A DNA stretch of 39,174 nt. Origin: Bacteroidales bacterium. GTDB taxonomy: Bacteria; Bacteroidota; Bacteroidia; Bacteroidales; JAAUTT01. Numbering within the stretch: the first letter of the stretch is position 1; every line of letters begins with the position of its first letter. The stretch covers positions 1 through 39,174 of the forward strand of contig JANYAP010000174.1 of the NCBI GenBank assembly GCA_025361285.1, in the 5' to 3' direction. The notes under the pieces were generated by a model. That model was given only the letters and a program-made list of their open reading frames with translations, had not been told where the DNA came from and made no database searches. Below, piece by piece: positions 7,001 through 32,614 of this stretch. Both the position numbers and the translations under genes were made by a program.

Positions 7001-8294
7001 CTGGCATTGTAAATTGATGTTCGCCGTTTCGCACGTTATAAACGGAGCCATCGCCCATTTCCCAGCGGTATGCAGCGCCATCGTCCATACCCTCATTTCT
7101 GAAGGTAATTTTTTCGCTAGGGCACACTCTAAGCGTGTCCATGCCCATATTATTACCATCGTTGTTGTTATAATCATATGGAGTAGCAAGGAATATATTA
7201 GGTTGTGGAGGCATTTTGCTTTGATCGGCAAAAATTTTAACATCGTTAGACCATGTATTGCTGTTTCCGCAACCATTTGTAAGAACCAATGTAACCTTAT
7301 ACGAACCCGTATCGGCATAAGTATTTGTTGGGTTTCGCTGGTTGGAAGTTCCGCCATCGCCAAACGACCAATTATATTGTCCGATACCGTTTGCGTTAAA
7401 ATGTATAGGCGAGTTAGGACATGAGTTTTGCTCAATCCAATAGTTAAACTGTGCCTGAGCAGGCAGATTATTGGTTGCATTTATATATGTAGTGTCTATA
7501 CCAACGCCGTTGCAAATATTTGTAGCAGTTAAAGTTACTGGGTAGTTTTGCATTTCTGAGTAGGCATGCGTTGGTTTTGGTAAGTTCGATGTTGTTCCGT
7601 CTCCAAATCTCCACGAGTATTGTTTGTACGCAATTCGCGTTTCAAACATAATTTCGTCGTTTATACATACTTGCCCGCCACCCGAAGTTTGTATCATTAC
7701 CGTTGGCTTGGCATCAGGTCGAATATCAATATTTTGTTGTAGTGTATCCGATCCGCATGGGCTGTCAAATATAACCTTAACCTGATATACCTTACCTACA
7801 GTATATCTATGTTTATTATCGAAATTAGTTGATGGTCCATCGCCAAAATCCCAAACTAAGTTCGAAATATTACCGTGTATCTCAAACATTACTTCTTCGC
7901 CAGGGCAAAACTGAGCGTTATTCGACGGAAGAAACTCTGTTGGTTTTCCATTCACATTAAAGCCTTTGTTATTGATGCCTTTATAAAAGCCTAAACTATC
8001 GGCCTCTACCCTTATACTATGGAATCCTTTCTGAAACAGCATTGGCTGAGGAACATAGCCAACGAAGAACGGCATAGTGCCATTATCCACAAACCACTTA
8101 TATTTAATACTAGTAGTGTCATAAAGGTTACTGCTTTTGTTGAAAAACGACACCATAGCAGGCGCGCAGACATTTCCACCCGGAATATAGACATCGATAT
8201 CTGGCACTTTTTGTTGAGCTAATGCCGGATTAAAGAATCCAGCAAATAATAGAAAAACGATAAGCCAGAAGACCAGAAAGATTAGTTTTTTCAT
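1059..8294 (-). CDS. Giant secreted PKD-repeat protein with T9SS C-terminal sorting domain
   Basis: A 2411-residue protein that begins with a Sec signal peptide (hydrophobic stretch to about residue 26, ending ALAQQ). I count about 23 PKD-like beta-sandwich modules by the W-x-F-G-D-G core followed by P-x-H-x-Y and a closing strand. The first five lie at about residues 120-550. A non-PKD segment fills about 555-850, two more modules follow, and then an unbroken run of about 16 occupies 990-2310. The later modules carry a regular four-cysteine pattern. The last 85 or so residues, with PLPF near their start, a DIYGRIV strand and a final IILIKSE, match a type A sorting domain of the type IX secretion system. 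It is probably exported and surface-attached or released, and may act in adhesion, gliding or scaffolding. No catalytic domain is recognised. The stop codon is next to the bidirectional terminator. Confidence 0.93.
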   Translation of the reverse strand: MKKLIFLVFWLIVFLLFAGFFNPALAQQKVPDIDVYIPGGNVCAPAMVSFFNKSSNLYDTTSIKYKWFVDNGTMPFFVGYVPQPMLFQKGFHSIRVEADSLGFYKGINNKGFNVNGKPTEFLPSNNAQFCPGEEVMFEIHGNISNLVWDFGDGPSTNFDNKHRYTVGKVYQVKVIFDSPCGSDTLQQNIDIRPDAKPTVMIQTSGGGQVCINDEIMFETRIAYKQYSWRFGDGTTSNLPKPTHAYSEMQNYPVTLTATNICNGVGIDTTYINATNNLPAQAQFNYWIEQNSCPNSPIHFNANGIGQYNWSFGDGGTSNQRNPTNTYADTGSYKVTLVLTNGCGNSNTWSNDVKIFADQSKMPPQPNIFLATPYDYNNNDGNNMGMDTLRVCPSEKITFRNEGMDDGAAYRWEMGDGSVYNVRNGEHQFTMPGNHFVKLTLTNNCKVSTVAYKLVIVSNQIKPIVNLKAIPKDFCPSEKAFFFEDGSNSDNPRYTYFINFGDGTQADNIKGNTDTLFKTLATHLYPTAGIYNYKFKAVNTCGNADSIMGQFNVSTNAAKTPFYYLNNSTVAEDKGDKTADWSVRRMPFDSRFVIPVRWDTWPGIDSTLTAFFFWRQFDPANPDAAGDPAGMVSKKMKNIISNGVDTIIAYVPFDVMNADSVGLVVGWYCNHKQTNGMPNAMTTAIKDIQPVKSIKVIPSGTVDIGALYSPGIVFASDAFNGVCTPNAQGNWSFKIADGNYYILRIHEGSYELNQASDIMNSQNSMQVSQGGSNIMGDTIMFNDMKCGTNGSFKFNVIGDKLILNMIYDNCQPRADAISSKQYTSFEDKGNNNNMDQTGCPGDKVKFMLAGGKNCKWDFGDGLPVMNGAVVYHTYANMGKYFAKAIATNACGRIDTMITVVTIGNSAKPSANFDIVNNSMSKGDTLRFKYWSGSDNDINNKYLWNFGDGTTSTLKMPVHVYNYIGGYNVKLTVTNGCGSNTGDRFIQIGGKYDQCNLSAKFYIVKPDSAKIIPNTPVMFMNNSVGSYTNYSWNFSDGVIDSSRNATHTFAKAGLYKICLSVYDVTTGCSNQMCMDVQVGDILCNANFNFAINSTTNTVDFFDKSVNAAKWSWMFQDGKTDIISNPRHQFASAGIYEVCLSISDRDNKCQSQKCQVISVGRIDSAKYCKAEYSYFVDQTTLEVRFKNESLGKIAKGNWSFGDGFQAFDENPIHKYAKPGLYKVCGSIMDSAGCQSVICKDIQVGMVACNADFTYFIDPTNNQVKFSQNDLGSNLIYFWNFGDGQSANTTDPSNTYKSGGRYTVVHSIKDTITQCHSDKYLDIQIGEQYCSAAFNFIVDQQTKTIKFVAKPDSGILTQWNFGDGSIASVANPVHQYTNYGLYQACLTVYNPKNKCTENSCVSINLTSETGTVALSADFAFLANNATKTVQFNDKSVGKIKRYYWNFGDGTSDTTASPTHVYAKAGSYRVCVFVADSMKHVAEQCKNVNISSLACNANFNFIVNPDGLSVKMIDMSSPQIRDQYWDFGNGQFSNNKDAVVKYSRAGVYKVCKSIVDSAGCKASECKEIQLGTLACKANFTNFVDGATKTVQFTDQSVADSSTYFWDFGDGSFSNQKNPTHTYQKAGTYNICQTIKGMVTNCVSDICKEIQVGNVLCEAEFAYQVDALSRTISLQNASRGDFKRFYWENGAGKSDTSENAKFVYTANGDYNVCLHAYNPITNCKSSICKTIGVINDTSKLVRFASDFTYYMIIDSSKIVLTDKSMGDPNKWYWTFGDGSFLKAKDASHKYSKPGVYKVCHTILSANGDFDEKCEQITVGQEPCNLTAGYSLFIDAKLLTVYMSDNSVGNAQKWFWKFGDGSTSYNKAPEHKYSKPGYYMISLSVIDTIKHCTGFFGDIIQVGDVNCKASYDYSVDMSLNELTLKNTSTGNVGKYFWNLGDYSTSMDENPIPYKYAEAGLYRVNLVASSDDGTCRDFYSQAIQVGTINCSADFDYYADSATSVASFKNKAIGSATKYLWLFGDGSTATDSDPVHKYAAPGYYKVGLNTYNRLNGCMNYYDKIILIGREGIDCQADFQYLVDDVNKAVKFYDNSNGKALQYNWNFGDQTAPEASANPTHTYNVGGYYNVCLTVYAENGVQNTQCKMVKVAPQANADCVADFDFNVDTLSRTIQLTDKSAGGVNKWFWNFGDEVTSTDQNPTHVYSKDGYYAVKLVVKNQTSGCTKATVKLINVADVPGLKVVFSVGLDTTKLKGGGQYPVTFTGVTNDGGAKYVWDFGDGSKDSTTNSPTHNYAEVGSYNACVTVSDPVTGQSNQYCQMIIAGPTGVNSINGSNVQLVAYPLPFTTSVTVSYTITENGYYELVVTDIYGRIVKSVAKGTKSSGVYTETIDGLAISSGTYFVQLKNKNVTVKTIILIKSE

Positions 8295-12489: not shown

Positions 12490-13929
12490 ATGAATAAGGT
12501 GATTAGTACAACATTACTATTTTCGTTTGCTGTTGCACTGTTTTATTCGTGTTCAAGTGGCGATGGGAAAAAAGAGGCGGGATCTATAATGATTGGTATT
12601 GCCGAAGTAAACTATACACCTAGGGTTGGTTTTGATTTAGCAGGTAATTATCGCGGAAACGATTATGCATCGCGTGGTATTCACGATTCGCTTTTTTGCA
12701 GAGCAATTGTTGCATCTAATGGAATTGAAAAGGCTGCTATTGTAACTATTGATATTTGTTTTTTAAAGAAAAATGCGGTGAATTTTATGCGTGCAAACAT
12801 TGCCGCAAAAACCGACATAAAGCCCGAAAACATAATGATTACCTGTTCGCATACACATAGTGGACCAAAACCTATAATTGACGATGCCGAAGGTAAAGAT
12901 GTTGAAGCTAAAGCATTCCTATTAAAGGCTTCTACGGCTGCAATTATAGCTAATGAACGCCTAAAACCAACAACAATTGCCGTTGGTAAAAGCACCGAGA
13001 ACCGTATATCGCACAACCGCCGTATTAAATGCAAAGACGGTTCAACGCACATGTGCTGGGAAAAGTACGAGCCAGGTTTTGCCATCGGTCCGCTTGGTCC
13101 TATCGATCCCGAGGTTATTACAATGTCGTTTACACAGGATGGCAAGCAAGTAGGAGCATTGGTTAATTTTGCGTGCCACGCTACTACACTAACCGGTAAT
13201 AATTGGTTGTATTCAGCTGATTATCCTGGATATATGGTTGAGACTTTAAAAAAACTTAAGGGGAAAGATTATATGCCAATGTTTATAAATGGCGTTAGTG
13301 GCAATCTTACTCAGGTTGATTATCGAGTTGGTTTCCCCGATACCTATCAAGAATGTCAGCGTATTGGTTATATGTTAGGAGTTGCCGCTGCCGCTGCCAT
13401 AAATAACGAACAGGTTATTAGCGGCAATGAAATTGCTGTTTCGCGCGAGATGGTACCACTTAGCAACCTAGATATTACGGACGAGCAATTTGAATGGGCT
13501 CAAATGATAATAAAAAAAGTAGAGAAAGAAGGTATGCCACCAATTCAAGCCAACGGTATCCCCGATGCTGCTTATGCTAAAAATTGGATTTCGATGAGAG
13601 CTAAACAGGATCTGGTAGACAGCCTCGAACTTATGGTTGTTCGTATTGGCGATATTGCTATTGTAGGTTTTCCCGGTGAAATGTTTACCGAGTTCGGTTT
13701 AGATATTAAAGCAAAATCGGCCTTCAAGAATACTATTGTTGCCGGAATAACCAACGATTCAAGAGCCTATTTCCCTACCAAAGTTTCGTTTACCGAAGGT
13801 CTTAAAGGTTTTACCCCTATGATTAAAGGCTACGAAACAACACCTGGTTCAACTTATTTCGACATTGGTTCTGGCGAAAAATTATCGGAATCTGCTTTAA
13901 ATCAATTAAAAAAGCTATTTAATAAATAA
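12490..13929 (+). CDS. Ceramidase-family hydrolase lipoprotein, copy 1
   Basis: A 479-residue protein matching the N-terminal catalytic domain of neutral/alkaline non-lysosomal ceramidases, which are zinc amidases that cleave N-acyl bonds. The C-terminal immunoglobulin-like domain of true ceramidases (about 650-750 residues) is missing. A signal peptide ends in LFYSC (Cys21) followed by SSGDG, which fits a Bacteroidota surface lipoprotein, though the lipobox is atypical. Zinc-site residues are visible as H121-T-H123-SGP and H230 in NFACHATTLTG, plus ADYPG at 243-247. Where characterised ceramidases have the catalytic Ser in G-N-L-S-P-N or G-D-V-S-P-N, this protein reads G271-N-L-T274-Q. An N-acyl amide of a sugar or lipid is a likelier guess than ceramide itself. 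Confidence 0.8.
   Translation: MNKVISTTLLFSFAVALFYSCSSGDGKKEAGSIMIGIAEVNYTPRVGFDLAGNYRGNDYASRGIHDSLFCRAIVASNGIEKAAIVTIDICFLKKNAVNFMRANIAAKTDIKPENIMITCSHTHSGPKPIIDDAEGKDVEAKAFLLKASTAAIIANERLKPTTIAVGKSTENRISHNRRIKCKDGSTHMCWEKYEPGFAIGPLGPIDPEVITMSFTQDGKQVGALVNFACHATTLTGNNWLYSADYPGYMVETLKKLKGKDYMPMFINGVSGNLTQVDYRVGFPDTYQECQRIGYMLGVAAAAAINNEQVISGNEIAVSREMVPLSNLDITDEQFEWAQMIIKKVEKEGMPPIQANGIPDAAYAKNWISMRAKQDLVDSLELMVVRIGDIAIVGFPGEMFTEFGLDIKAKSAFKNTIVAGITNDSRAYFPTKVSFTEGLKGFTPMIKGYETTPGSTYFDIGSGEKLSESALNQLKKLFNK
12510..12575 (+). repeat. 66-bp exact repeat shared with 14035-14100
   Basis: The signal-peptide coding stretch of ceramidase-family copy 1 is identical, base for base, to 14035-14100 in copy 2, although the codons on either side have diverged at synonymous sites. 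Confidence 0.85.
12955..13085 (+). repeat. 131-bp near-identical tract shared with 14465-14595
   Basis: This stretch in copy 1 matches copy 2 with one difference (A at 13035, G in copy 2). It encodes the segment around the conserved ENRISHNRRIKC sequence. Flanking regions differ at many third positions, so the two genes are mosaic in identity. Confidence 0.85.
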
Positions 13930-14014: not shown

Positions 14015-15439
14015 ATGAATAAGCTTATTAGTAGAACATTACTATTTTCGTTTGCTGTTGCACTGTTTTATTCGTGTTCAAGTGGCGATGGGAAAAAAGA
14101 AGCTGGATTGCTAATGATTGGTATTGCCGAAGTTAACTACACTCCGCCAATAGGAACTGATTTGGAAGGAAATTACCGCGGAAGCGATTATGCATCGCGT
14201 GGCGTACACGATTCGCTATTTTGCAGAGCAATTGTTGCATCAAATGGAATTGAAAAAGTAGCTATTTTAACTATCGACATTTGTTATTTAAAGAAAAACG
14301 CTGTAAACGCAATGCGAGCCAACATTACCGAAAAAACTGGTATTAAGGCCCAAAACATTATGGTTAGCTGCTCACATACACATAGCGGACCAAAAGCTGA
14401 GATTGAAGATTCCAAAGCCAAGGAATTTCTTTTAAAAGCATCGACCGCTGCAATTATAGCTAACGAACGCCTAAAACCAACAACAATTGCCGTTGGTAAA
14501 AGCACCGAGAACCGTATATCGCACAACCGCCGTATTAAATGCAAGGACGGTTCAACGCACATGTGCTGGGAAAAGTACGAGCCAGGTTTTGCCATTGGCC
14601 CGCTTGGCCCTATCGACCCCGAAGTTATTACAATGTCGTTTACACAAGATGGCAAACAAATAGGAGCATTGGTAAATTTTGCATGCCACGCCACAACACT
14701 TACTGGAAACAACTGGCTATATACAGCCGATTATCCAGGTTATATGGTCGAATCCATTAAAAAACTTAAGGGGAAAGATTATTTGGCAATGTTTATGAAT
14801 GGCACTTGCGGAAACATTACTCAAGTTGATTATCGCGTTGGTTTCCCCGATACATATCAGGAATGTCAACGCATTGGTTATATGCTTGGCGTTTCGGCTG
14901 TTGAAGCCATTAACAACGAACAGGTTATAGGAGGCAACGAAATAGCTGTTTCGCACGAAATGGTGCCAATTGGCTTACTCGACATTTCCGACGAGCAATT
15001 GGAATGGGCAAAAATGATAATGAAAAAGGTAGAAAAAGAAGGCATGCCACCTATTCAAGCCGACGGAATACCCGATGCTGTTTATGCAAAAGATTGGATT
15101 GAAATGCGCGCAAAACAAGATCAGATTGATAGCCTTGAAGTTATGGTTGTTCGTATTGGCGATGCTGCGTTTGTTGCCCTCCCAGGCGAAATGTTTACCG
15201 AATTTGGCTTATATATAAAAGAAAAATCGCCTTGTAAAAACACTATTGTTACCGGTTTAAGTAACGATAGTCGCGAATATTTCCCAACCAAAGTTGCGTT
15301 TACCGAAGGTTTACCAGGCTTTACACCAATGATAAAAGGTTACGAAACAACACCAGGTTCAACTCGTTACGATATTGGTGCAGGCGAAACATTATCGGAA
15401 TCGGCTTTAAATCAATTAAATAAACTTTTTTCCAAATAA
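14015..15439 (+). CDS. Ceramidase-family hydrolase lipoprotein, copy 2
   Basis: A 474-residue tandem paralogue of the gene upstream, with the same signal peptide and Cys21 start of the mature protein. It keeps H121-T-H123-SGP, H225 in NFACHATTLTG and TADYPG. The position of the ceramidase nucleophile is again Thr (T269 in GNITQ), and the residue before the glycine is Cys (NGTCGN) where copy 1 has Ser. It lacks a five-residue stretch after HTHSGP present in copy 1 and differs around TPPIGTDLEG, so the substrate pocket may differ. It probably acts at the cell surface or in the periplasm. Fully cytosolic enzymes follow, beginning 45 bp downstream with the aminotransferase. Confidence 0.8.
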   Translation: MNKLISRTLLFSFAVALFYSCSSGDGKKEAGLLMIGIAEVNYTPPIGTDLEGNYRGSDYASRGVHDSLFCRAIVASNGIEKVAILTIDICYLKKNAVNAMRANITEKTGIKAQNIMVSCSHTHSGPKAEIEDSKAKEFLLKASTAAIIANERLKPTTIAVGKSTENRISHNRRIKCKDGSTHMCWEKYEPGFAIGPLGPIDPEVITMSFTQDGKQIGALVNFACHATTLTGNNWLYTADYPGYMVESIKKLKGKDYLAMFMNGTCGNITQVDYRVGFPDTYQECQRIGYMLGVSAVEAINNEQVIGGNEIAVSHEMVPIGLLDISDEQLEWAKMIMKKVEKEGMPPIQADGIPDAVYAKDWIEMRAKQDQIDSLEVMVVRIGDAAFVALPGEMFTEFGLYIKEKSPCKNTIVTGLSNDSREYFPTKVAFTEGLPGFTPMIKGYETTPGSTRYDIGAGETLSESALNQLNKLFSK

Positions 15440-15484: not shown

Positions 15485-16759
15485 ATGTCAGAAAAATTAG
15501 CAATTCACGGAGGATCAAAAGCGGTAACACTTCCAAAAATCAATTGGCCACAGTTCGACGAAAACACTATCAAAGCAGTTGAAAATGTACTTCGTTCGGG
15601 TAAAGTAAACTACTGGACTGGTAACAAAGGGCAAGAGTTCGAGAAAAAATTTGCCGAATGGCAAGGTAGTAAATATGCAGTTAGCGTTGCAAATGGTACA
15701 GCTGCACTGCACGTTAGCTTGGTTGCTTTAGGAATAGGTCCCGGCGACGAAGTTATTGTTCCTAGCTACACATTCATCGCTACAAGCTTCTCGGTTCTTC
15801 AAGCTGGTGCAATTCCTCGTTTTGCCGATGTAAACCGCGACGACCACTGTATTAGCATCGAATCTGCTGAGAAACTTGTAAATTCGCGCACAAAAGCTAT
15901 TATGCCTGTTCACCTTTACGGAAACGTAGCAGATATGGACAAAGTAAACGCTTTTGCTAAAAAACACAACCTTTTTGTAATTGAAGACAACGCCGAAGCA
16001 TTTGGCGGTTCGTACAAAGGTAAAAAAACAGGTACTTTAGGTACAATTGCTGGTTGCAGTTTCTGCCAAAGCAAAACCTTTACAACGGGTGGCGAAGGAG
16101 GTATGATTACTACCGATGACGAAAACCTATTTTGGTTAGCTAAATCGTTTAAAGATCACGGATACGATGTTCGCGAGCGCTTAAACCTTTTGGAAATGGA
16201 ACAAAAACTTAACTACGTTCACAACATGGTTGGTTTTAACTTCCGTATGACCGAAATGCAAGCAGCAATGGGTATTTGCGAATTGGAGCGTTTCGACACT
16301 TGGAACATGCCACGTCGTAAAAAGAATGCTCATATTATTATGGATAAAGTAAAAGACTTGAAACAAGTACTTTATGCTCCAATTGACACAAAAGAGCGCG
16401 AAAACGGTTGGTTCGTAATGGCTTTCACACTCGATATCGAAAACATGAATTGCACTATCAAAGAATTTGTTGATGCTGCAGTTGCCGAAGGAGCTCCAGT
16501 TTGGAAAGTTTTCTGGCCACAATGCCACGCCGAGCAAGCATATCAAACCAAAAATGGTTTCGGTAAAGTTGGTTTTCCATTCAATTCTAAAGAATATACC
16601 GATCCGAAAAGTGTTGATTACTCGAACGTTGAAGTTCCTAATGCTAAATGGCACGAAGAACATACATTTACTTGTTTCGCTTACCCAACTTACACTCCCG
16701 AAAATTGCGAACAAATTGGCGATGCATTACGCAAGGTTATTTTAGCATTCTCTAAATAA
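15485..16759 (+). CDS. DegT/DnrJ/EryC1/StrS-family PLP sugar or cyclitol aminotransferase
   Basis: A 424-residue fold-type I PLP enzyme. The opening LAIHGGSKAV is typical of the branch that includes scyllo-inosose aminotransferases and sugar 3- or 4-aminotransferases. VANGTAALH binds the cofactor phosphate, D168 in IEDNAEA contacts the pyridine nitrogen, and K197 in CQSKTFTTGGEGG is the Schiff-base lysine. The family transfers an amino group between an amino acid and a keto-sugar or keto-cyclitol, and the reaction is reversible. The neighbouring Gfo/Idh dehydrogenase starts 8 bp later and could make or use the keto compound. An AT-rich leader with repeated ATAATTCATAA words precedes the start. 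Biosynthetic or catabolic direction cannot be decided from sequence. Confidence 0.9.
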   Translation: MSEKLAIHGGSKAVTLPKINWPQFDENTIKAVENVLRSGKVNYWTGNKGQEFEKKFAEWQGSKYAVSVANGTAALHVSLVALGIGPGDEVIVPSYTFIATSFSVLQAGAIPRFADVNRDDHCISIESAEKLVNSRTKAIMPVHLYGNVADMDKVNAFAKKHNLFVIEDNAEAFGGSYKGKKTGTLGTIAGCSFCQSKTFTTGGEGGMITTDDENLFWLAKSFKDHGYDVRERLNLLEMEQKLNYVHNMVGFNFRMTEMQAAMGICELERFDTWNMPRRKKNAHIIMDKVKDLKQVLYAPIDTKERENGWFVMAFTLDIENMNCTIKEFVDAAVAEGAPVWKVFWPQCHAEQAYQTKNGFGKVGFPFNSKEYTDPKSVDYSNVEVPNAKWHEEHTFTCFAYPTYTPENCEQIGDALRKVILAFSK

Positions 16760-16767
16760 TTTCAGTA

Positions 16768-17814
16768 ATGTCAGAAACCAAAATAAAATGGGGTGTTATC
16801 GGCTCAGGCGGTATTGCCCAACGCAGAACAATCCCCGAAGGGATTGTTCTTGCTAAAAATGCCCAATTAGTTGCAGTATTCGATGTTAACGCAGATGTGA
16901 ACAATGCCGTTGCAACAAAATTTAATGCAAAAGCAGTTAAAAGTATCGACGAATTATTGAAGTCCGATATCGACGCTGTATATATTGCTTCGCCAGTAAA
17001 CCTGCACCTCGAACACACTGTTGCTTGCGCGAAAGCAAAAAAACACGTTTTCTGCGAAAAGCCTCTTGGAATGACCGTTGCCGATGCCGAACAAATGATA
17101 AAAGTTTGTAAGCACGAAAGCGTTGTTTTAGGTACTGGTCTTATGATGCGCTTCTTAGCTCAACATCAGGCGGCTTTAAAGCTTATTAAAGACGGTAAAT
17201 TAGGTAAACCAGTTTATGGCAGGGCTCAATTATCGTGCTGGTATCCACCAATTCCAGGTGCATTCCGTCAGGATCCTGCATTAGGTGGCGGAGGTTCGCT
17301 TATGGATATGGGCAGCCATTGTATCGACTTGCTTGAGATGTTCTTCGGCGAAGTAGAATCAGTTAGCTGTTTCATTAACAACACTGTACACGCATACAAA
17401 TCGGAAGATAGCGCGGTAGTTTCGTTGAGATTTAAGAATGGAGCACTTGCCACCGTCGATTCGTATTTCTGCATTCCCGATAATAGTAGCAAGAATATTC
17501 TTGAACTTTATGGTTCAATGGGAAGCATTTTGGCTAAAGGTACTATCGGACAAGGTATTGCTGGCGAAATGACAGCATTTTTAGAAGGCGACACTGCTGG
17601 ATATGATGCTAATCAAGCACGAACTGCTGACAATGGATTAGTAATAAATCCCACTCCGGTTAATATGTATTTAGCTGAAATTGAAGAGTTTAGTAGTGCT
17701 TTGCTCGAAAAGCGTGAGCCAACGAACAGTGCTGCTATAGGCTTACAAAGCCAAAAAGTACTTACAGCTTGCTATCAATCGGCTAAAACCGGAAATATTG
17801 TAAAATTGGATTAA
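16768..17814 (+). CDS. Gfo/Idh/MocA-family NAD(P)-dependent oxidoreductase
   Basis: A 348-residue two-domain dehydrogenase. G12-S-G-G-I-A is the Rossmann dinucleotide loop, C96-E-K98-P carries the catalytic Lys, and GGGGSLMDMGSHCIDLL gives D180 and H184 of the active site. The family oxidises a ring hydroxyl of a sugar, sugar phosphate or inositol to a ketone, or the reverse. Pairing with the DegT aminotransferase immediately upstream (8-bp gap) resembles dehydrogenase/aminotransferase pairs such as those for kanosamine or amino-inositol chemistry, but that is an analogy only. The protein is cytosolic, without a Tat signal. The next gene follows after 10 bp. Confidence 0.9.
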   Translation: MSETKIKWGVIGSGGIAQRRTIPEGIVLAKNAQLVAVFDVNADVNNAVATKFNAKAVKSIDELLKSDIDAVYIASPVNLHLEHTVACAKAKKHVFCEKPLGMTVADAEQMIKVCKHESVVLGTGLMMRFLAQHQAALKLIKDGKLGKPVYGRAQLSCWYPPIPGAFRQDPALGGGGSLMDMGSHCIDLLEMFFGEVESVSCFINNTVHAYKSEDSAVVSLRFKNGALATVDSYFCIPDNSSKNILELYGSMGSILAKGTIGQGIAGEMTAFLEGDTAGYDANQARTADNGLVINPTPVNMYLAEIEEFSSALLEKREPTNSAAIGLQSQKVLTACYQSAKTGNIVKLD

Positions 17815-17824
17815 CTTTTTCTTT

Positions 17825-18577
17825 ATGGAAAAAACTGTATTAGGTATCTGTGCACACCCCGACGATGTTGAGATTTTGTGCGCAGGTACCCTTTCGTTGT
17901 TTAAAAAAGCTGGTTGGAATGTTCACATTGCAACAATGGCTCCAGGCGATAAAGGAACGGCCGAATATAACATCGAGGAAATAAGCCGAATACGTAAAGC
18001 CGAAGCTGCCGAAGCTGCTAAGTTAATCGGTGCAACATATCACTGTCTCGAATTTGCCGATGTGTATATTATGTACACCCCCGATTCGATAAACCGCACA
18101 ACATCGCTGATACGTAATATTCGCCCATCGGTAGTTTTTACGCACAGTCCGAACGATTATATGATAGATCACGAAACAACCAGTAAAATAGTACAAACGG
18201 CCTGTTTTTGTACTGGAGTAAAAAATTTGGAAATATCCGAACCAATATACGAGCCTGCTCCATACCTCTATTATTGCGATCCTATGGAGGCCAAGGATAT
18301 TTTTGGAACTCCAATTATTGCATCTATGTTTGTTGATATTTCTACCGAAATTTCTACCAAAGAAAAAATGCTCGCTTGCCACGCTAGTCAACGTAACTGG
18401 TTGATGACGCACCATAAAATGGACGAATATATTCATTCGATGCAACGTTTTAGCGAATCGCGTGGGAAAGAAATAAACACAAAATATGCCGAAGGTTTCC
18501 GTCAACATTTAGGACACGGCTTTTCGCAAAATAATGCTTTGAAAGAGATTTTGGGCGAATTGGTAGTAGTGAAATAG
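17825..18577 (+). CDS. PIG-L (LmbE)-family N-deacetylase
   Basis: A 250-residue zinc deacetylase of the PIG-L/LmbE fold. The hallmark A10-H-P-D-D-V-E16 holds two zinc ligands and the general base, and SPNDYMID-H116 supplies the third zinc ligand. Known members remove acetyl from GlcNAc joined to inositol, malate or lipid, as in GPI anchor, mycothiol and bacillithiol synthesis. No signal peptide is present, so it is cytosolic. It is spaced 10 bp from the oxidoreductase and 49 bp from the NagB-like gene. In many Bacteroidota a PIG-L domain is fused to NagB; here the two are separate, adjacent genes, which supports a joint role on one amino sugar. Confidence 0.88.
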   Translation: MEKTVLGICAHPDDVEILCAGTLSLFKKAGWNVHIATMAPGDKGTAEYNIEEISRIRKAEAAEAAKLIGATYHCLEFADVYIMYTPDSINRTTSLIRNIRPSVVFTHSPNDYMIDHETTSKIVQTACFCTGVKNLEISEPIYEPAPYLYYCDPMEAKDIFGTPIIASMFVDISTEISTKEKMLACHASQRNWLMTHHKMDEYIHSMQRFSESRGKEINTKYAEGFRQHLGHGFSQNNALKEILGELVVVK

Positions 18578-18626: not shown

Positions 18627-19559
18627 ATGGCACGTAAAATAAGCATGTTAGCCGCCGATTGGTGGGATTTTACAACACTCGACGACAAAATTTTAAGCGA
18701 AGCCGCAAAGCTTACCCCGAAGGATATGCTAAAGCTATCACGACCAGGGTTTAAAGTGGTTTTTTACGATACACTCGAAGATTTTTATTTAGCCGAAGCA
18801 CTTGAGTACATAACCGCTTGGAAACAAGCAACAGCAAACAATCCAGTAGGTATATGCGGTCCAATAGGCCCTACCGAGCAACTGCCATTAGTGGCTAGGT
18901 TAGTGAACGAATTGCAGTTAAGTTTAAAAAACTGTCATTTTTGGGGAATGGACGAGTGGTATGTTAATGGCAAAGAAATGGACAGTTCGCATCCACTATC
19001 GTTCGAAAAAGCCGATAAAGATTTGTGCTTTAATAGAATAGATAAAAAACTTCGTATGCCAGAGGAGAACATGCATTTCCCAAAGGCCGATTTAAAAACA
19101 TATATAAATAGTTGGGATGCTGGTGTGCGTTGTGCCGTAATACAAGGCGGACAAGGCGATACCAAACACTGGGCTTTTAACGACCCCTTAAAACGCGAAG
19201 GAAAGTACAAAGACAACCCACCAACACCCGAAGAATACCGTAAGCTATCAACCCGAGTTGTTGATTTACATCCTGTTACATGTATGCAAAATGCTCGTAC
19301 CAGTGCAGGTGGCGTGGTTACTGGAATACCTACTACAGCGCTAACAGTAGGCCCAGTACAAACTTGGAAAGCCGAAAAGGTGTCGATATGGCAAGCCGGA
19401 ATGCACGACAACCCATTTGGGCAAAGACTTACTGCTTATATGATTAGCAACAAAATAATGGACAGCTCTGTACCTATGTCGTTATTAGCCGACCACCCAA
19501 ATGTTCAGTTTAACTATTATAGAAGTGGCATTGGTGTTTGCGAAACCGAAATGCATTGA
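18627..19559 (+). CDS. Divergent NagB-like (glucosamine-6-phosphate isomerase/deaminase fold) protein
   Basis: A 310-residue protein of the NagB/6-phosphogluconolactonase fold. It retains M108-D109-E-W-Y, equivalent to the MDEY that carries the enolisation Asp of NagB, and the loop G174-G-Q-G-D-T-K-H181-W-A-F-N-D-P. In E. coli NagB the matching loop is G-N-D-G-H-I-A-F-N-E-P with Asp141, His143 and Glu148. Here His is kept, the Asp position is Thr179 with an Asp one residue earlier, and the Glu is Asp186. It is also longer than NagB (about 266). It may therefore isomerise or deaminate a different amino sugar, possibly unphosphorylated. It closes the cytosolic gene run that an inserted toxin-antitoxin unit now separates from the CBM9-like gene. 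Confidence 0.78.
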
Positions 19560-19698: not shown

Positions 19699-20355
19699 GT
19701 GAGAGTAATTGCAAAAAGTACATTGCGAGAATTTTGGATAATTCACAAAGACTGCGAGGAACAATTAAAATCTTGGTATGACGAGGCTGAGAAATCAAAT
19801 TGGATTTCGCCAAATAACCTAAAATTTGAATATCCCTCTGCTAGTATTTTGCAAGGAAATCGAGTAGTTTTCAATGTCAAAGGGAATGCTTATCGATTGA
19901 TTGTAAAGATAAATTACAAATATGGAATTATATGGATCCGCTTCATTGGTACTCATGGCGATTATGACAAGATAAATGCTGAAAATGATATAATTATTAT
20001 GGAACATAAGGTAATAAAAACAGAAGAGGAATATAAATTGGCTTTAAAAAGGCTTGAGGTTATATTTGATGCGGAATTTGGCTCTATGGAAGGCGAAGAA
20101 TTGGATCTATTATCATTATTGATAGATAGCTATGAAAAAATACATTATCCTATTGATTTACCAGACCCAATTGAGGCTATTAAATTTAGAATGGAACAGA
20201 TGAATTACAAACCCAAGGATTTAGCTGATGTAATTGGTTTTAGAAGTCGAGTAACTGAAATATTAGGGAAAAAGAGAAAATTATCATTAGAAATGATTCG
20301 AAAGATTAATAAACGAATGCATATTTCAACTGATGTGTTAATTCAAGAATACTAA
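19699..20355 (+). CDS. higBA: HigB toxin - HigA antitoxin fused in one reading frame
   Basis: A 218-residue ORF starting with GTG. Residues 1-96 match a HigB-type mRNA interferase: RVIAKSTLREFW at the start, YPSASIL, RVVFNVKGNAYRLIVKIN and a closing RFIGTHGDYDKINA. Residues 101-218 match a HigA-type antitoxin: an acidic helical start (MEHKVIKTEEEY) and a C-terminal helix-turn-helix region (about 170-218) with KPKDLADVIGFRSRVTEILGKKRKLS. The two are normally separate genes, and HigB normally stops right after the GTHxxYDKI tract. Here four residues (NDII or so) bridge into the antitoxin without a stop. The antitoxin's own ATG at 19999 is preserved and could give free HigA by internal initiation. 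A one-base change near 19981-19998, real or a sequencing error, would restore two genes. Confidence 0.85.
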   Translation: MRVIAKSTLREFWIIHKDCEEQLKSWYDEAEKSNWISPNNLKFEYPSASILQGNRVVFNVKGNAYRLIVKINYKYGIIWIRFIGTHGDYDKINAENDIIIMEHKVIKTEEEYKLALKRLEVIFDAEFGSMEGEELDLLSLLIDSYEKIHYPIDLPDPIEAIKFRMEQMNYKPKDLADVIGFRSRVTEILGKKRKLSLEMIRKINKRMHISTDVLIQEY

Positions 20356-20537: not shown

Positions 20538-21290
20538 ATGGCATTAAAAACAATATTCGTTCTAAATGTACTAACTGCTTTATTGTTATCTAGTTGTTCA
20601 TCATCAAAACATCCAAATTCTGCTAATTCGCCAACCTATTTGGTAACTCGCCTTACTTCTCCTATGTCTATCGATGGTAATTGGGATAAGCCACAGTGGC
20701 AGAATGCTAAAATTATTGAACCTAAATATTTTATGGGCGACACTCCAAAATACATCCCCCAAACCCGAGCAAAGGTGATGTATAACGATAGCAACCTTTT
20801 TGTAATTTTTAAAGTGCAGGAGCAATTTGTAAAGTGCGTAATGCAAAATATTAACGACGATGTTTGCAGCGATCCTACCGTTGAATTCTTCTTTGCCCCC
20901 GACGCCAAAGAGCCTCTAAAATATTTTAATCTTGAAATTAATTGTGGCGGAGTGCCATTAATGTATTATGTTACGGAGGCTCGAAAGGTATTTAAACCCC
21001 TTACCAATAAAGAAATTGAAAGTGTTGAAATATTCCATTCTTTTCCTAAAAGTATTGAGAAGGAAATACCCGATACTACAACATGGGTAATTGAGTACAG
21101 GTTGCCATTAAGTATTCTTAAAAAATATTCAAAAATTACCCAACCTCAAAAAGGAGTTGTTTGGAAAGCTAATTTTTATAAAATAGCCTTTAGAACAACG
21201 AACCCGCATTTTATTACATGGTCGTTTGTTGACAATCCAGAGCCCGATTTTCATTTACCACAATTTTTTGGAACACTCATCTTTCAATAA
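20538..21290 (+). CDS. CBM9-like carbohydrate-binding lipoprotein
   Basis: A 250-residue protein with a lipoprotein signal (lipobox LSSC, Cys20) followed by Ser-rich linker. The body resembles the 'carbohydrate-binding family 9-like' (CBM9/DOMON-like) beta-sandwich: SIDGNWDKPQWQNA at the start, an inner VMYNDSNLFVIFKVQ strand pair, DPTVEFFFAP, the central ...YFNLEINCGG and a late WKANFYKIAF. Such domains bind sugars or heme-like ligands at the cell surface. No catalytic residues are recognised. It starts 53 bp after the proposed cassette end and 12 bp before the third ceramidase-family gene, so it is probably a substrate-capture partner of that hydrolase. Confidence 0.8.
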   Translation: MALKTIFVLNVLTALLLSSCSSSKHPNSANSPTYLVTRLTSPMSIDGNWDKPQWQNAKIIEPKYFMGDTPKYIPQTRAKVMYNDSNLFVIFKVQEQFVKCVMQNINDDVCSDPTVEFFFAPDAKEPLKYFNLEINCGGVPLMYYVTEARKVFKPLTNKEIESVEIFHSFPKSIEKEIPDTTTWVIEYRLPLSILKKYSKITQPQKGVVWKANFYKIAFRTTNPHFITWSFVDNPEPDFHLPQFFGTLIFQ

Positions 21291-21302: not shown

Positions 21303-22673
21303 ATGAAATCATCAGTAATTCAGTTTGTTATTGTTTTGTATTGTTCGCTTTTATCCGTTTTAGGAATGGCACAAACACCGCCTCTGGAAATGGGCGTTGG
21401 ATATGTCGACATTTCAGGCGATAGTGCAGTAATACTTGATACTTTGCACGTTAAAGCGGTAGTTTTTCGACAAGGAGCTATCGAATTTGCATTGGTTGAG
21501 TGCGATATTGCAAAAGTAGGTAGCGATATTACTGTACCGGCCCGAGAAAAAGCATCGTTAAGTACCGGCATACCATACAGTAATATATGTGTAGCTGCAA
21601 CACATACACACATGTATTTGCCTCATAAAGATATAGTTATAGCTGTTGAACAGGCCGTTGTGAAAGCAAAAAGGGCACTTAAACCAGTAACCATAAAATC
21701 GGGTATTGGTCAGGAGTTTAACGTAGCCTTCAATAGAAGATATTTTATGAAAGATGGCTCGGTGGTTTTTAACCCAATGTTTTTAAACCCCGAAATTGTG
21801 CGCCCTGCGGGAACAATAGATGCAGAAGTAGGAGTGGTGATGTTTTATAATGCCAATCAACAAAAACCTGTTGCTTCCATTTCAAATTATGCTTTGCATT
21901 TAGACATTGTAAAGGAGTATGGTGCTGTATATCAAAAAGGTGGCGATGGCTCACGTAATTCGGTTAGTGCCGATTACCCATACTGGATTGAAACGGCTTT
22001 ACGAAAAGATTTTGGTAATGAGTTTAATTCGATATTTTTAACGGGTTGTTGTGGAAATATTAATCATTGGGATTTTTCGAAGCCTGGTCCGCAAAGTGGT
22101 CATAAAACCAAATCGAAACAAGTTGGCGACTCGCTGTATTGTGCCATTAAGCGCATAATACCCAAGTTAAAGTTCGAAACACCTAGTTTAGCCACTCGAT
22201 CGCGAGTTTTGTCGATTCCTCTTCAATCATTTACGGAAGCCGATTTGACATGGGCAAAACAAATTCAAAAGGCCAGTCTTTCCTCCAGAAGTGAAGAACC
22301 TAAAGAGCGTCAACAGTTTCTCGACAACGTAAAGACAAGAAGAATTTTATGGCTCAACGAGAAAAAGCTAAATGGAATTACAAGCATACCTATTGATGTT
22401 CAGGTTTTTAGATTAAGTAGTAATACTGCAATTGTTACTTTACCAGGCGAAATGTTTGTAGAACATGGGTTGACAATTAAAAATAATTCGCCATTTGAAA
22501 ACACAATTATTGTGGAATTAGCTAACAACGACATTAATTATGTTCCAAACAAAAAAGCATTTCCGCAAGGTGGTTATGAGGTCGAAAATTCGCGTATTAT
22601 TCCCGGAGGTGGCGAAATGCTGGTAGATGCGGCTATTCAGTTGCTGAAGGAATTGAAAAATGATGTAAAATAA
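21303..22673 (+). CDS. Ceramidase-family hydrolase, divergent third member
   Basis: A 456-residue periplasmic or secreted protein with a cleavable signal peptide (to about residue 24, GMAQ) and no lipobox. It shares the ceramidase N-terminal fold with the two paralogues at 12490-15439 but is clearly more distant. Zinc residues appear as H101-T-H103 and H199 in NYALHLDIV, with SADYPYW kept. The nucleophile motif reads G251-N-I-N254-H-W, so Asn stands where ceramidases have Ser and the paralogues have Thr. The MFVEHGL and GEM segments near the C-terminus are shared with the paralogues (GEMFTEFGL). It follows the CBM9-like gene by 12 bp and precedes the permease by 28 bp. It may cleave a related N-acyl bond after outer-membrane passage. 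Confidence 0.78.
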   Translation: MKSSVIQFVIVLYCSLLSVLGMAQTPPLEMGVGYVDISGDSAVILDTLHVKAVVFRQGAIEFALVECDIAKVGSDITVPAREKASLSTGIPYSNICVAATHTHMYLPHKDIVIAVEQAVVKAKRALKPVTIKSGIGQEFNVAFNRRYFMKDGSVVFNPMFLNPEIVRPAGTIDAEVGVVMFYNANQQKPVASISNYALHLDIVKEYGAVYQKGGDGSRNSVSADYPYWIETALRKDFGNEFNSIFLTGCCGNINHWDFSKPGPQSGHKTKSKQVGDSLYCAIKRIIPKLKFETPSLATRSRVLSIPLQSFTEADLTWAKQIQKASLSSRSEEPKERQQFLDNVKTRRILWLNEKKLNGITSIPIDVQVFRLSSNTAIVTLPGEMFVEHGLTIKNNSPFENTIIVELANNDINYVPNKKAFPQGGYEVENSRIIPGGGEMLVDAAIQLLKELKNDVK

Positions 22674-22701: not shown

Positions 22702-24117
22702 ATGGCTTCTGAAACAAGTAATGCATCAATAACCGAACCGCAATCGAATCGGAAACTTGGCTTGTGGGATTTAGTTTTCTACGGAATAGTATTAAATCAG
22801 CCTGTTGCAGCTGTTGGTCTATTTGGTTTGGTATCTATCTTGTCGGGTGGACACATGGTTACTACATTGCTAATGAGTATGGTAGCTATGCTTTTAACAG
22901 CAGTAAGTTACGGACGTATGGCTGCGTTGTTCCCTTCGGCAGGTTCGGCATATACTTACGTTGGTCGTGGTATTAATTCCCACTTGGGTTTTATGGCCGG
23001 TTGGACTATGATTTTGTGCTATCTTATTATTCCGATTATCAATACTGTTTTTTGTGTTCTCTCGTTTCAACGATTGGTACCAGCTATGCCATATTCGGTT
23101 GGTGTTGTTGCGTTTATACTAATAATAACCTTTTTAAACTTGCTTGGAGTTAAATCGAGTATGACGGCGAATAAAATAATGCTATATGTAATGTTAGTAA
23201 TTATTGGAGCTTTTATTATATTCGCTATCAAGTATATAGCTCATACATTAGGTTGGGTTGGGTTGATTGACACTAAACCTTTTTACAACGCTCAAACCTT
23301 TAACTTTGCAGCTATCGCTTCTGGAACTGCTTTAGTTGCTTTAACTTATGTAGGTTTCGATGGTATTACAACATTAGCAGAAGATGTAAAAAATCCTACA
23401 CGCAATGTTTTACTGGCAATAATTATAGTGTGCTTATTTACTGGAATTTTTAGCGCCTTGCAAATGTATTTAGCTCAGCAATCGGCTGTTACAATGTGGC
23501 TAAGCAACACTTTTACCTCCGAAACACCATTTTACAATCGAATTCCAGCTGAACATGTCGAAACTGCATTTATGACAGTTTGTGCGCAAGTTGGCGGTTC
23601 GGTATTGTTTAATTCCATTATTATTACCATGATTATTGCTTGCATAGGAAGCGGCATAGCAGGTCAATTGGGTGCTGCAAAACTTCTTTACGGAATGGGA
23701 AAAGACAATGTTTTACCACGTAAATTTTTTGGTTATACCGATAAAAAAAGTAACTCGCCAATATATAACATTCTATTAATAGCCGTATTAGCTGGCATTG
23801 GTGCATTAATATTAAATTACCAGAAAACCGCCGAACTTATTAATTTTGCAGCACTTATAGCATTTATGGGAGTTAATTTGGCTGCTATTAATCAGCTGTT
23901 CTTTAAGTCCTCTCAGAAAAAGAACCTAAAAAACATTATTACCGACTTATTAGTTCCTGCCACAGGGTTTCTTTTCTGCCTTTGGATTTGGATAAAGCTT
24001 CCAAGTGGCTCGATATTATTAGGAGGAATTTGGTTACTAATAGGCATTGTTTACCTAGCAATAAGCACCAAAGGCTTTAAAGTTAAACCTGCCGAACTCG
24101 ATTTTAAAGACGTTTAA
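22702..24117 (+). CDS. APC-superfamily permease
   Basis: A 471-residue integral membrane protein with about 12 hydrophobic segments, starting at the first LGLWDLVFYGIVLNQPVAA helix. This opening and the SYGRMAALFPSAGSAYTYVGRGIN stretch after helix 2 are hallmarks of the amino acid-polyamine-organocation family, nearest to putrescine or amino-acid importers. TYVGFDGITTLAEDVKNPTRN is the conserved loop before a middle helix. It would import a cationic amine or amino acid by proton coupling. As the only transporter in the 12490-25473 locus, it is a candidate for uptake of the amine-bearing product of the hydrolases, although APC proteins rarely carry sugars. Confidence 0.86.
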   Translation: MASETSNASITEPQSNRKLGLWDLVFYGIVLNQPVAAVGLFGLVSILSGGHMVTTLLMSMVAMLLTAVSYGRMAALFPSAGSAYTYVGRGINSHLGFMAGWTMILCYLIIPIINTVFCVLSFQRLVPAMPYSVGVVAFILIITFLNLLGVKSSMTANKIMLYVMLVIIGAFIIFAIKYIAHTLGWVGLIDTKPFYNAQTFNFAAIASGTALVALTYVGFDGITTLAEDVKNPTRNVLLAIIIVCLFTGIFSALQMYLAQQSAVTMWLSNTFTSETPFYNRIPAEHVETAFMTVCAQVGGSVLFNSIIITMIIACIGSGIAGQLGAAKLLYGMGKDNVLPRKFFGYTDKKSNSPIYNILLIAVLAGIGALILNYQKTAELINFAALIAFMGVNLAAINQLFFKSSQKKNLKNIITDLLVPATGFLFCLWIWIKLPSGSILLGGIWLLIGIVYLAISTKGFKVKPAELDFKDV

Positions 24118-24186: not shown

Positions 24187-25473
24187 ATGGTTAAAAATGT
24201 ATTAGTTGCACAATCGGGCGGCCCATCGCCTGTTATTAACAATTCGTTACGCGGTGTTATTGAAGCTTGTAGAGTAAACCCAAATGTTTTTGGTAAAGTT
24301 TATGGCGGTTGGCATGGTATCGAAGGTGTTTTGCAAGAAGAACTTATCGACATTTCGGCGCAAGATCAAAAAGAGATTGATTTACTGGCTTTTACACCAT
24401 CGGCTGGAGCTATAGGCACTTGCCGTTATAAATTAAAAGACAATCAAACGGAAGATTTTGAGCGTATTATTGATGTATTTAAAGCTCATAACATTGGTTA
24501 TTTCTTCTATATTGGTGGAAACGATTCGATGGATACCGCTAACAAAATTTCGATTTTAGCTAAGGAGCGTAACCTCGAGCTTACAGTTGTTGGTGTGCCA
24601 AAAACTATCGATAACGACCTTGGTGATCAGGATTTTAAACTACTTGACCACACTCCAGGCTACGGATCTACTGCTCGCTACTGGGCATTAACAATTCAAA
24701 ACGCCAACCAGGAGAGCCTAGGTTGTTGCACCCACAACCCAGTAATTGTGCTTCAAGGCATGGGGCGTAAAACTGGTTTTATTCCCGCAGCAGCACGCTT
24801 AGGCGATCCAAACCGAGAAATGCCTTTGCAAATATATTTACCCGAGTCGGGTCTTAATCTTCAGGATATGGCCGATAATGTTAGCGATGAACTAAAACGC
24901 AGCCGTCGTTGTATCGTGGTGGTTAGCGAGGGCTTTGATGTTGGTTCGCTTGGTGAGCGACACGATAGATTCGGACACATTGACTATAATGCTTCGGAAA
25001 CAACAGTAAGTCAAATAGTTATTAATTATTTGAACACAAAGAAATTATCGAAATACGGTCCTGTTTGGGGAAATGTATCGGGACTTGAACAACGTATGGT
25101 TTCATTGCAGTCGTCAACAGTCGATCACGAGGAGGCGTTCGAAGTTGCGCAACATGCAGTTGAATTAGCTATAAACGGCGATAATGGATACATGAGTACC
25201 ATTCTGCGTAAGCCAGGCGCAAAATACGAAGCCTATTACGATAAGGTAAAGCTCGATATTGTTGCTAATGCCGATCGTCAAATTCACCCAACATGGTTAG
25301 CAGCCAATAAATACGACTTAACCGACGAGTATATTAAATACGCACAACCGCTTATTGGAACCGAATGGGTTAAAGTGCCCCTCGAAAACGGACTGCAACG
25401 ATTTGCTAAATTTAAGATGATACTAGCCGATAAGAAGTGTAAACCTTATGTGCCTGAAACATATAGGAGTTAG
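24187..25473 (+). CDS. 6-phosphofructokinase-family protein, PPi-type signature
   Basis: A 428-residue phosphofructokinase-fold enzyme. ATP-dependent bacterial PFKs carry GGDGS and PGTIDND. Here the motifs are G110-G-N-D-S114 and P138-K139-T-I-D-N-D144. The Lys139 and the Asp in GGND match the pyrophosphate-using branch, so diphosphate is the likely phosphoryl donor. GSTARYWALT and MGRKTG, which contact the sugar phosphate, are intact. The enzyme would make fructose 1,6-bisphosphate in the cytosol, or act on a related sugar phosphate. It lies 69 bp after the APC permease on the same strand and has its own strong SD. It could be a general glycolytic gene or the exit step of the upstream amino-sugar locus. 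Confidence 0.88.
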   Translation: MVKNVLVAQSGGPSPVINNSLRGVIEACRVNPNVFGKVYGGWHGIEGVLQEELIDISAQDQKEIDLLAFTPSAGAIGTCRYKLKDNQTEDFERIIDVFKAHNIGYFFYIGGNDSMDTANKISILAKERNLELTVVGVPKTIDNDLGDQDFKLLDHTPGYGSTARYWALTIQNANQESLGCCTHNPVIVLQGMGRKTGFIPAAARLGDPNREMPLQIYLPESGLNLQDMADNVSDELKRSRRCIVVVSEGFDVGSLGERHDRFGHIDYNASETTVSQIVINYLNTKKLSKYGPVWGNVSGLEQRMVSLQSSTVDHEEAFEVAQHAVELAINGDNGYMSTILRKPGAKYEAYYDKVKLDIVANADRQIHPTWLAANKYDLTDEYIKYAQPLIGTEWVKVPLENGLQRFAKFKMILADKKCKPYVPETYRS

Positions 25474-31826: not shown

Positions 31827-31858
31827 TTAGTTGGCTTGTTACAATGTTTAAAACTTAT

Positions 31859-32530: not shown

Positions 32531-32614
32531 TTTCTTTATTTTTTATTTTTGATTACTGCAACTACTTATTTTACTGTTAATTTTAATAAAAAATAGACAT
32601 TAATAAATTAAAAA

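Follow-up and report, generated by a model that had tools for sequence, protein, structure and literature searches.

Glucosamine-6-phosphate (GlcN6P) deaminases of the NagB type (TIGR00502) are the closest described relatives of the protein considered here, and those of Escherichia coli (1dea) and Bacillus subtilis (2bkv) are available as solved structures. In the E. coli enzyme, we take Asp72 to be the general base and His143 to be the residue involved in ring opening, and we likewise assume that Arg172 is a ligand of the phosphate group and Lys208 a further ligand residue. NagB also occurs in fused form, in reading frames of 632-652 amino acids whose second domain is presumably a PIG-L deacetylase. 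The 6-phosphogluconolactonases (TIGR01198) belong to the same superfamily and share its fold. According to section 19 of one published account (PMC4281351), the start of a helix in NagB holds the phosphate of the substrate. The present analysis concerns a stretch of 39,174 nucleotides from a Bacteroidales bacterium (contig JANYAP010000174.1; hereafter, the window), in which an open reading frame at 18627-19559 of the forward strand, running from ATG to TGA, encodes a NagB-like protein of 310 amino acids, named P0001. Our preferred reading, held tentatively and at close to evenly balanced confidence, is that the branch to which P0001 belongs acts on a 2-amino sugar without a phosphate at C6, most likely glucosamine or galactosamine, which it isomerises and deaminates in a step placed between PIG-L deacetylation and ketose phosphorylation. 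In the literature searched, in which subscription journals are weakly represented, we found no experiment on the P0001 family and no deaminase of non-phosphorylated hexosamines with a NagB fold.

P0001 carries [17 protein letters not shown] and exceeds E. coli NagB (266 amino acids) by 44 residues, in agreement with the difference of about 45 residues given by a first-pass annotation of the same DNA. This extra length is mostly N-terminal, since the structural alignment starts at about residue 42. Within the resulting extension of about 41 residues, which NagB does not have, W12, W13, D14, T16 and T17 are unvaried in the 81 aligned members of the family. The longest antisense reading frame overlapping the gene has 158 amino acids and a TTG start. 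An AlphaFold2 model built from the 81 family members reached a mean pLDDT of 89.7 and a pTM of 0.88 (an earlier model from four sequences, with a pLDDT of 53.8, was set aside). The predicted structure is clearly of the NagB fold: it aligns with B. subtilis NagB at a Z score of 25.3 (rmsd 2.1, 231 residues) and with E. coli NagB at 24.5 (238 residues), in both cases with an identity of 21-22%, and its best Foldseek match is again a NagB (7lqn, E 5.5e-15). Structures of 6-phosphogluconolactonases (Z up to 19.7) and sugar-binding domains of the SorC/DeoR type (Z up to 10.1) match the model more weakly. These matches allow for P0001 being no amino-sugar enzyme at all, acting instead as a lactonase similar to 6-phosphogluconolactonase or as a sugar-binding regulator of the same fold. 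Such a role is very improbable. P0001 keeps the MDE motif, the catalytic His and an acidic residue where NagB has Glu148, whereas the four lactonase rows compared have DER or DEK for MDE and nothing acidic in the Glu148 column; P0001 groups nearer to NagB than to these lactonases, its N-terminal extension is short, and the PIG-L gene found beside it argues for amino sugars.

Although the fold is shared with NagB, P0001 scores 29.8 bits against TIGR00502, for which the curated NCBIfam cut-off is 236.9, and it matches no Pfam family. A search with PF01182 (gathering cut-off 27 bits) at E values up to 10, in which the HMMER filters drop most weak matches, returned no match for P0001, L057 or L104; with the same profile E. 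coli NagB scored 81.2 bits, and two proteins of a sister branch, from Vibrio and Haloarcula, scored 29.5 and 22.7 bits, respectively. The first-pass annotation had proposed a phylogeny as a check, and this phylogeny places P0001 on a separate branch and not inside NagB. The tree comprises 52 proteins, with few characterised rows, some long comparison rows and a bootstrap that is not fully settled; the underlying alignment holds 15 family rows, 11 rows of the sister branch and 26 other rows, 22 of them NagB-type (one of these, L132, groups with the lactonases). All 15 family rows fall into a single clade (100/100), which together with the 11 sister rows, named here after their "PVGP" loop, makes a larger clade (100/100). 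Six NagB rows and seven fused NagB rows form clades of their own (100/99 in each case), the lactonases form another, and the family and its sister branch lie outside all of them. Support is weak (81/63) for the node that joins the family and sister clade to the NagB rows. The stem of the family amounts to 2.53 changes per column, and its members differ little among themselves.

The catalytic loop of P0001, [14 protein letters not shown] (residues 174-187; 19146-19187, forward strand), was the feature on which the first-pass annotation had based its case, and alignment with E. coli NagB bears out its description. The Asp of NagB is displaced by one residue, with Thr179 at the Asp141 position and Asp178 just before it; Asp186 stands at the Glu148 position; His181 corresponds to His143; and the MDE motif is retained as M108-D109-E110 (18948-18956, forward strand; invariant in 81/81 members), with Asp109 at the Asp72 position. 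Both Asp109 and His181 are present in every one of the 81 members. The loop reads GGQG[D/E][I/T/V/A]KHWAFNDP in 81/81 members, a count that is biased because the patterns used to gather these members included KHWAFND; the same loop appears in 24/24 Planctomycetota members found by a profile search that had no exact seed, though its profile had been built from the pattern-gathered members. Judged from these alignments, the change in the loop is not due to chance. In addition, the residue just before the catalytic His (the Gly142 position of NagB) is a lysine, Lys180, in all 81 members and in 15/15 family rows, and in 0/37 comparison rows.

From the loss of the Asp and the Glu the first-pass annotation concluded that the protein is probably not a plain GlcN6P deaminase. 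That conclusion is probably right, being favoured by the bit score, the tree, the phosphate loop and the presence of NagB in eight other member genomes; the two reasons given for it are weaker than this evidence. The position of Asp141 carries Asp in only 9 of the 22 other NagB-type rows, and forms close to the solved GlcN6P deaminase of B. subtilis, which has Asn there, are among the remaining 13. The position of Glu148 is likewise without Glu in 8 of the 22 rows (Glu in 14/22). Fused NagB proteins resemble P0001 in the first respect, all seven rows having Thr, Asn or Ser in place of Asp141. The catalytic loop was therefore rejected as the sole diagnostic of an altered function, given the 13 rows without Asp141 and the Asn of B. 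subtilis NagB.

A second alteration concerns the loop that precedes the phosphate-binding helix. NagB has TGGTP or a close form in this place (PTGGTP with the preceding proline), and P0001 has C77-G-P-I-G-P-T83 (18855-18875, forward strand), which is two residues shorter and lacks the Ser/Thr before the proline. Residues 77-79 and 81-83 are invariant in the 81 members, and residue 80 is Ile in 80 of them and Val in one; T83 is replaced by Val in 3 of the 24 further, profile-found members from Planctomycetota. The Thr/Ser-Gly-x-Ser/Thr-Pro loop is absent from the family, all 15 rows of which read IG--P, and the 11 sister rows (PVG--P in 11/11) show the same shortening by two and the same lack of Ser/Thr before the proline. 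Both positions are gapped in none of the 26 other rows, and the second alone is gapped in four. Unlike P0001, the fused NagB proteins keep a phosphate loop of the TGSTP type (TGVSP in L003) together with Lys208 in 7/7 rows. The column of Lys208 itself holds Lys in 26/26 other rows, 1/11 sister rows and 0/15 family rows, in which it is Q, M or I and is followed by Arg (15/15). In P0001 it falls on Gln266 of the segment F264-G-Q-R267 (19416-19427, forward strand; Q in 50 and M in 31 of the 81 members). The loop supports a substrate without a phosphate group, and this column may do so as well. A complete loss of the Lys208 ligand, suggested by a gapless reading by eye that pointed to Asp261, became less certain when the alignments with the sister branch led to Gln266, next to a conserved basic residue. 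This residue, Arg267, is Arg in 80 members and Lys in one. Moreover, Arg224 of the segment N222-A223-R224 (19290-19298, forward strand) aligns with Arg172 of E. coli NagB and is present in 81/81 members, and Arg190 is conserved as well. Given Arg224 and the Arg or Lys at position 267 throughout the 81 members, an anionic group could still bind, and the two arginines, as read from the alignments, weigh against the view that the capacity to bind anions has simply gone.

The genomes that contain the family bear on whether it replaces NagB. Eight of nine member genomes also encode a NagB above the cut-off, five unfused and three in frames of 638-652 amino acids, so that in these genomes a protein of the P0001 type is not a replacement for NagB. 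This argument fails for the ninth, the genome of the window, because a NagB above the cut-off is absent there. Apart from P0001 it has only a divergent NagB domain of 73 bits in a frame of 784 amino acids (L115), which in the alignment retains Lys208 and a phosphate loop of the form TGKTP. No match to 6-phosphogluconolactonase was found in the same genome, which has five PfkB-family matches, one of them a gene of the window resembling 2-keto-3-deoxygluconate (KDG) kinase, and two GH20 matches, both outside the window. It might be thought that P0001 is a divergent and otherwise ordinary deaminase of GlcN6P, or of galactosamine-6-phosphate, which binds the phosphate in another way. The retained fold, the residues at the Asp72 and His143 positions and the alignment of Arg224 with Arg172 agree with this, as do the lone, divergent NagB match of the window genome and the occurrence of the Asp141 and Glu148 changes in other NagB-type proteins, the former also in the solved B. 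subtilis enzyme. Nevertheless, we consider it rather unlikely in view of the phosphate loop, shortened in every family row compared, the long stem of the separate branch and the eight genomes that have a NagB of their own.

A scan of a genome collection confirmed at least 570 of 585 matched stretches as relatives, and the 80 loci that were kept are, among the matches listed, 71-83% identical over the full length. Their record titles place them in Bacteroidota, Planctomycetota, Verrucomicrobiota, Balneolota, Kiritimatiellota, Chloroflexota, Omnitrophota and Poribacteria. By sequence scores the family is discrete: in Planctomycetota, members score at least 506 bits and occur in 24 of 294 genomes, counting the centre genome, and the best of the remaining relatives do not exceed 99 bits. 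Within the phylum of the window, members occur in 3 of 395 genomes, counting that of the window; none of four genomes of the same genus has one, and one other was found among the 41 relatives searched. The patchy spread, together with nine changes of phylum label in the family tree against a least possible number of seven, suggests some lateral transfer, though it proves little. Viral contigs yielded no confirmed relative, and plasmids yielded distant relatives only, in four plasmid records.

In the window the gene lies within a run of forward-strand genes that begins with a tandem pair of neutral-ceramidase-like proteins. The first (12490-13929) was grouped by similarity with the second (14015-15439; PF04734, 63.5 bits), which probably belongs to the same operon and has an equivalent at the same place in L041. 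They are followed by genes assigned by Pfam to a DegT/DnrJ/EryC1 aminotransferase (15485-16759) and, 8 nt downstream, to a Gfo/Idh/MocA oxidoreductase (16768-17814), which ends 10 nt upstream of a PIG-L family deacetylase gene (17825-18577). The latter lies 49 nt upstream of the NagB-like gene. Its product scores 94.6 bits against PF02585 (gathering cut-off 28.2) and contains AHPDD, which includes what we take to be the deacetylase motif of PIG-L, HPDD; it is BshB1-like, with 126.2 bits against TIGR04001, under the cut-off of 182.5. Downstream of the NagB-like gene come a HigB-domain frame, a CBM9-domain protein (20538-21290; PF16011, 115.8 bits) whose equivalents in L041, L042 and L046 directly follow the NagB-like gene, a third ceramidase-like protein (21303-22673), a transporter of the amino acid permease family (22702-24117; assigned by Pfam, with an equivalent in L041) and, as the last gene of the run, a diphosphate--fructose-6-phosphate 1-phosphotransferase (24187-25473; NF010675, 374.6 bits, cut-off 273). 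The third ceramidase-like copy was placed by similarity, is itself without a Pfam match at E 0.001, and is more distant than the very similar pair at the head of the operon.

The PIG-L gene is the most regular partner of the family. The counts that follow leave out the window and L002, L006, L007 and L096, which are short stretches (L006 and L085 share a contig, as do L007 and L096; A2 is without L051, whose reading frame is split, L085 and L096). An adjacent PIG-L gene, on the same strand and within 300 nt, is found in 48 of the 63 loci flanked on either side by 1.2 kb or more; five of the other 15 have one further off on the same strand, and ten have none in the available stretch. Within 6.5 kb on the same strand it occurs in 34 of the 35 loci whose flanks measure 5 kb or more on each side, which are related to one another, so that these counts and those below are not independent. 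A PIG-L gene is seen in 14 of the 24 profile-found Planctomycetota members, whose flanks do not exceed 1.5 kb. The adjacency favours an amino sugar as the substrate, and the loci and short-flank members that show no such gene weigh against the preferred reading. Between the window and 11 chosen loci, the NagB-like protein is better conserved than its partner (72-81% against 33-76% identity). Fused NagB would have the same pairing in one chain, if its second domain is a PIG-L.

The other neighbours vary. In the same 35 related loci, Gfo/Idh genes are near 13 members, mannitol-1-phosphate-dehydrogenase-like genes 11, PfkB kinases 11, DUF4432 proteins 9, xylose-isomerase-like proteins 8, FAD-oxidoreductases 8, DegT aminotransferases 2 and GH20 enzymes 2. 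Six Planctomycetota loci (L057, L059, L071, L072, L082 and L087) share genes for an FAD-oxidoreductase, a xylose-isomerase-like protein, PIG-L, the NagB-like protein, PfkB, DUF4432 and a mannitol-1-phosphate-dehydrogenase-like protein in one run, and of each gene group one member was checked; this run agrees with a free ketose as product. The xylose-isomerase-like and dehydrogenase-like proteins checked lie under their curated cut-offs, which counts against this reading: the xylose-isomerase-like protein of L075 matches solved xylose isomerases at E 1e-52 and reaches 212 of the 447 bits required, and the dehydrogenase-like proteins of L070 and L041 reach 94 and 245 bits against a cut-off of 368 for mannitol-1-phosphate dehydrogenase. 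The nearby sugar kinases are diverse, which is in keeping with a ketose phosphorylated last. When either of two PfkB groups is scored against the profile of the other, the result is only about 7-15 bits among the matches listed; L048 has an XylB-like FGGY kinase (315 bits, cut-off 380), and a galactokinase-like gene lies within the run of L035. On the other side, no PfkB gene is near 24 of the 35 loci, and none is in the operon of the window, which ends in a pyrophosphate-dependent phosphofructokinase. A single kinase family for all loci was considered and rejected: the two PfkB groups barely recognise each other, and a kinase from Haloarcula, described below, scores about -3 to 0 bits against both PfkB profiles and belongs to a Pfam ketohexokinase family. 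The NagB-like gene of Segetibacter koreensis is preceded by PIG-L and followed first by a NagP-like transporter (367 bits; cut-off 625) and then by GH20. By analogy, the last two genes point to N-acetylhexosamines as the input and favour plain amino sugars. The presumed GH20 proteins of L092 and L109 were grouped by similarity with the S. koreensis protein, the only one that was matched to GH20; that of L109 has no NCBIfam match.

The DegT, Gfo/Idh and ceramidase-like genes have no place in a scheme of this kind, and they have to be set against it. They might be accommodated if P0001 acted on a larger or modified amino sugar tied to the chemistry of PIG-L, Gfo/Idh and DegT, for instance a glucosaminide of the bacillithiol type or a sugar with a 3-keto or 3-amino group. 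For this one could cite the similarity of the window PIG-L to BshB1, the same-strand Gfo/Idh genes near 13 of the 35 loci, and the DegT and ceramidase-like genes within the window operon. It seems quite unlikely, however: the PIG-L protein stays under the BshB1 cut-off, DegT is near only 2 of the 35 loci, and the GH20 enzyme and NagP-like transporter of S. koreensis fit plain N-acetylhexosamines.

An acidic sugar deserves consideration too. On this account, P0001 would deaminate an anionic amino sugar other than GlcN6P, for example a 2-amino-2-deoxyuronate, to a product resembling fructuronate or tagaturonate, and Arg224, Arg267 and Lys180 would bind the carboxylate. The conservation of these residues and of Arg190 is in its favour, and the window holds a set of hexonate/hexuronate type on the reverse strand (30288-33652), consisting of an MFS transporter whose best match is a D-galactonate transporter (under the cut-off), a KDPG aldolase that passes its cut-off and a PfkB protein resembling KDG kinase. 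This set, however, begins about 5 kb beyond the operon and on the opposite strand. The dehydrogenases near some members fall within the mannitol dehydrogenase family, of which fructuronate reductase is also a member; yet that of L070 scores 30 bits against fructuronate reductase and 94 against mannitol-1-phosphate dehydrogenase, and that of L041, with its 245 bits against the latter, has no fructuronate-reductase match. The xylose-isomerase-like and ketohexokinase neighbours also point to neutral ketoses. Altogether, we regard an acidic substrate as unlikely, though it is to be taken seriously.

The sister branch extends the comparison to Haloarcula, Vibrio nigripulchritudo and paralogues from Planctomycetota. 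Its proteins are 24-33% identical to P0001 in the plasmid search and are annotated as hypothetical or as 6-phosphogluconolactonase. Apart from the shortened loop, they differ from the family in keeping the Gly before the catalytic His and in having no Arg at the Arg172 column, both in 11/11 rows. The lack of an aligned Arg, which also tells against a common reading of the two groups, means that they may differ in substrate. Two Haloarcula plasmids carry a pair of sister proteins beside GlpR, a ketohexokinase and an aldolase annotated as fructose-1,6-bisphosphate aldolase, the kinase being assigned to the Pfam family "Prokaryotic ketohexokinase" (PF25270) with 458.5 and 464.1 bits. Ketohexokinase acts on free ketohexoses, and therefore a free ketohexose is the likely product of the Haloarcula pair, as judged by analogy; this supports the reading of P0001 that we prefer. 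On the conjugative plasmid NZ_AP027051.1 of V. nigripulchritudo, the sister gene (L140, 8827-9723; annotated as hypothetical) is part of a set for nucleoside salvage, together with a nucleoside hydrolase, adenosylhomocysteinase, adenosine deaminase, ribokinase and a NupC/NupG transporter. An amino-sugar nucleoside could be the source of the substrate there, and this set, with its ribokinase, suggests that the sister branch may serve several free sugars. Two of the six sister paralogues (L165 and L169, from Planctomycetota) adjoin PIG-L genes, so that the pairing with PIG-L is either older than the P0001 family or has arisen more than once.

The loss of part of the phosphate loop and the usual PIG-L neighbour make a non-phosphorylated amino sugar the most likely substrate of P0001, and from this we infer the order of steps as follows. 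The PIG-L enzyme would first remove the N-acetyl group from an amino sugar. The NagB-like protein would then release ammonia from the free hexosamine and isomerise it to a free ketohexose, with chemistry similar to that of NagB, in which Asp109 would be the general base and His181 and a neighbouring carboxylate would take part in ring opening. Finally, a sugar kinase of the PfkB, FGGY or ketohexokinase type, encoded in the operon or elsewhere, would phosphorylate the ketose. More broadly, and with somewhat greater reserve, we put forward that this order, reversed with respect to the textbook one (PIG-L deacetylation, phosphate-independent deamination and isomerisation of the NagB type, and a ketose kinase at the end), is a widespread route, and that the family and the "PVGP" branch are enzymes of the NagB fold for non-phosphorylated amino sugars in Bacteroidota, Planctomycetota, Verrucomicrobiota and haloarchaea. 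If so, many polysaccharide degraders of Planctomycetota, Verrucomicrobiota and Bacteroidota would metabolise amino sugars through a pathway overlooked by annotation, because P0001 has no Pfam match and lies far below the NCBIfam cut-off for NagB. The choice of substrate within the NagB fold would then be tied to one readable feature, the phosphate loop, and a function would be assigned to a family for which a single genome collection yielded at least 570 confirmed matches.

Two further observations concern the window itself. Between the NagB-like and CBM9 genes, a frame of 218 amino acids with a GTG start (19699-20355, forward strand) contains a HigB-type toxin domain (PF09907, residues 20-92) and, read by eye, continues in frame without a stop into a stretch resembling a HigA-type antitoxin. 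Elsewhere in the window, the reverse strand encodes a protein of 2411 amino acids (1059-8294), in which many PKD-like repeats and a C-terminal sorting tail were recognised by eye.
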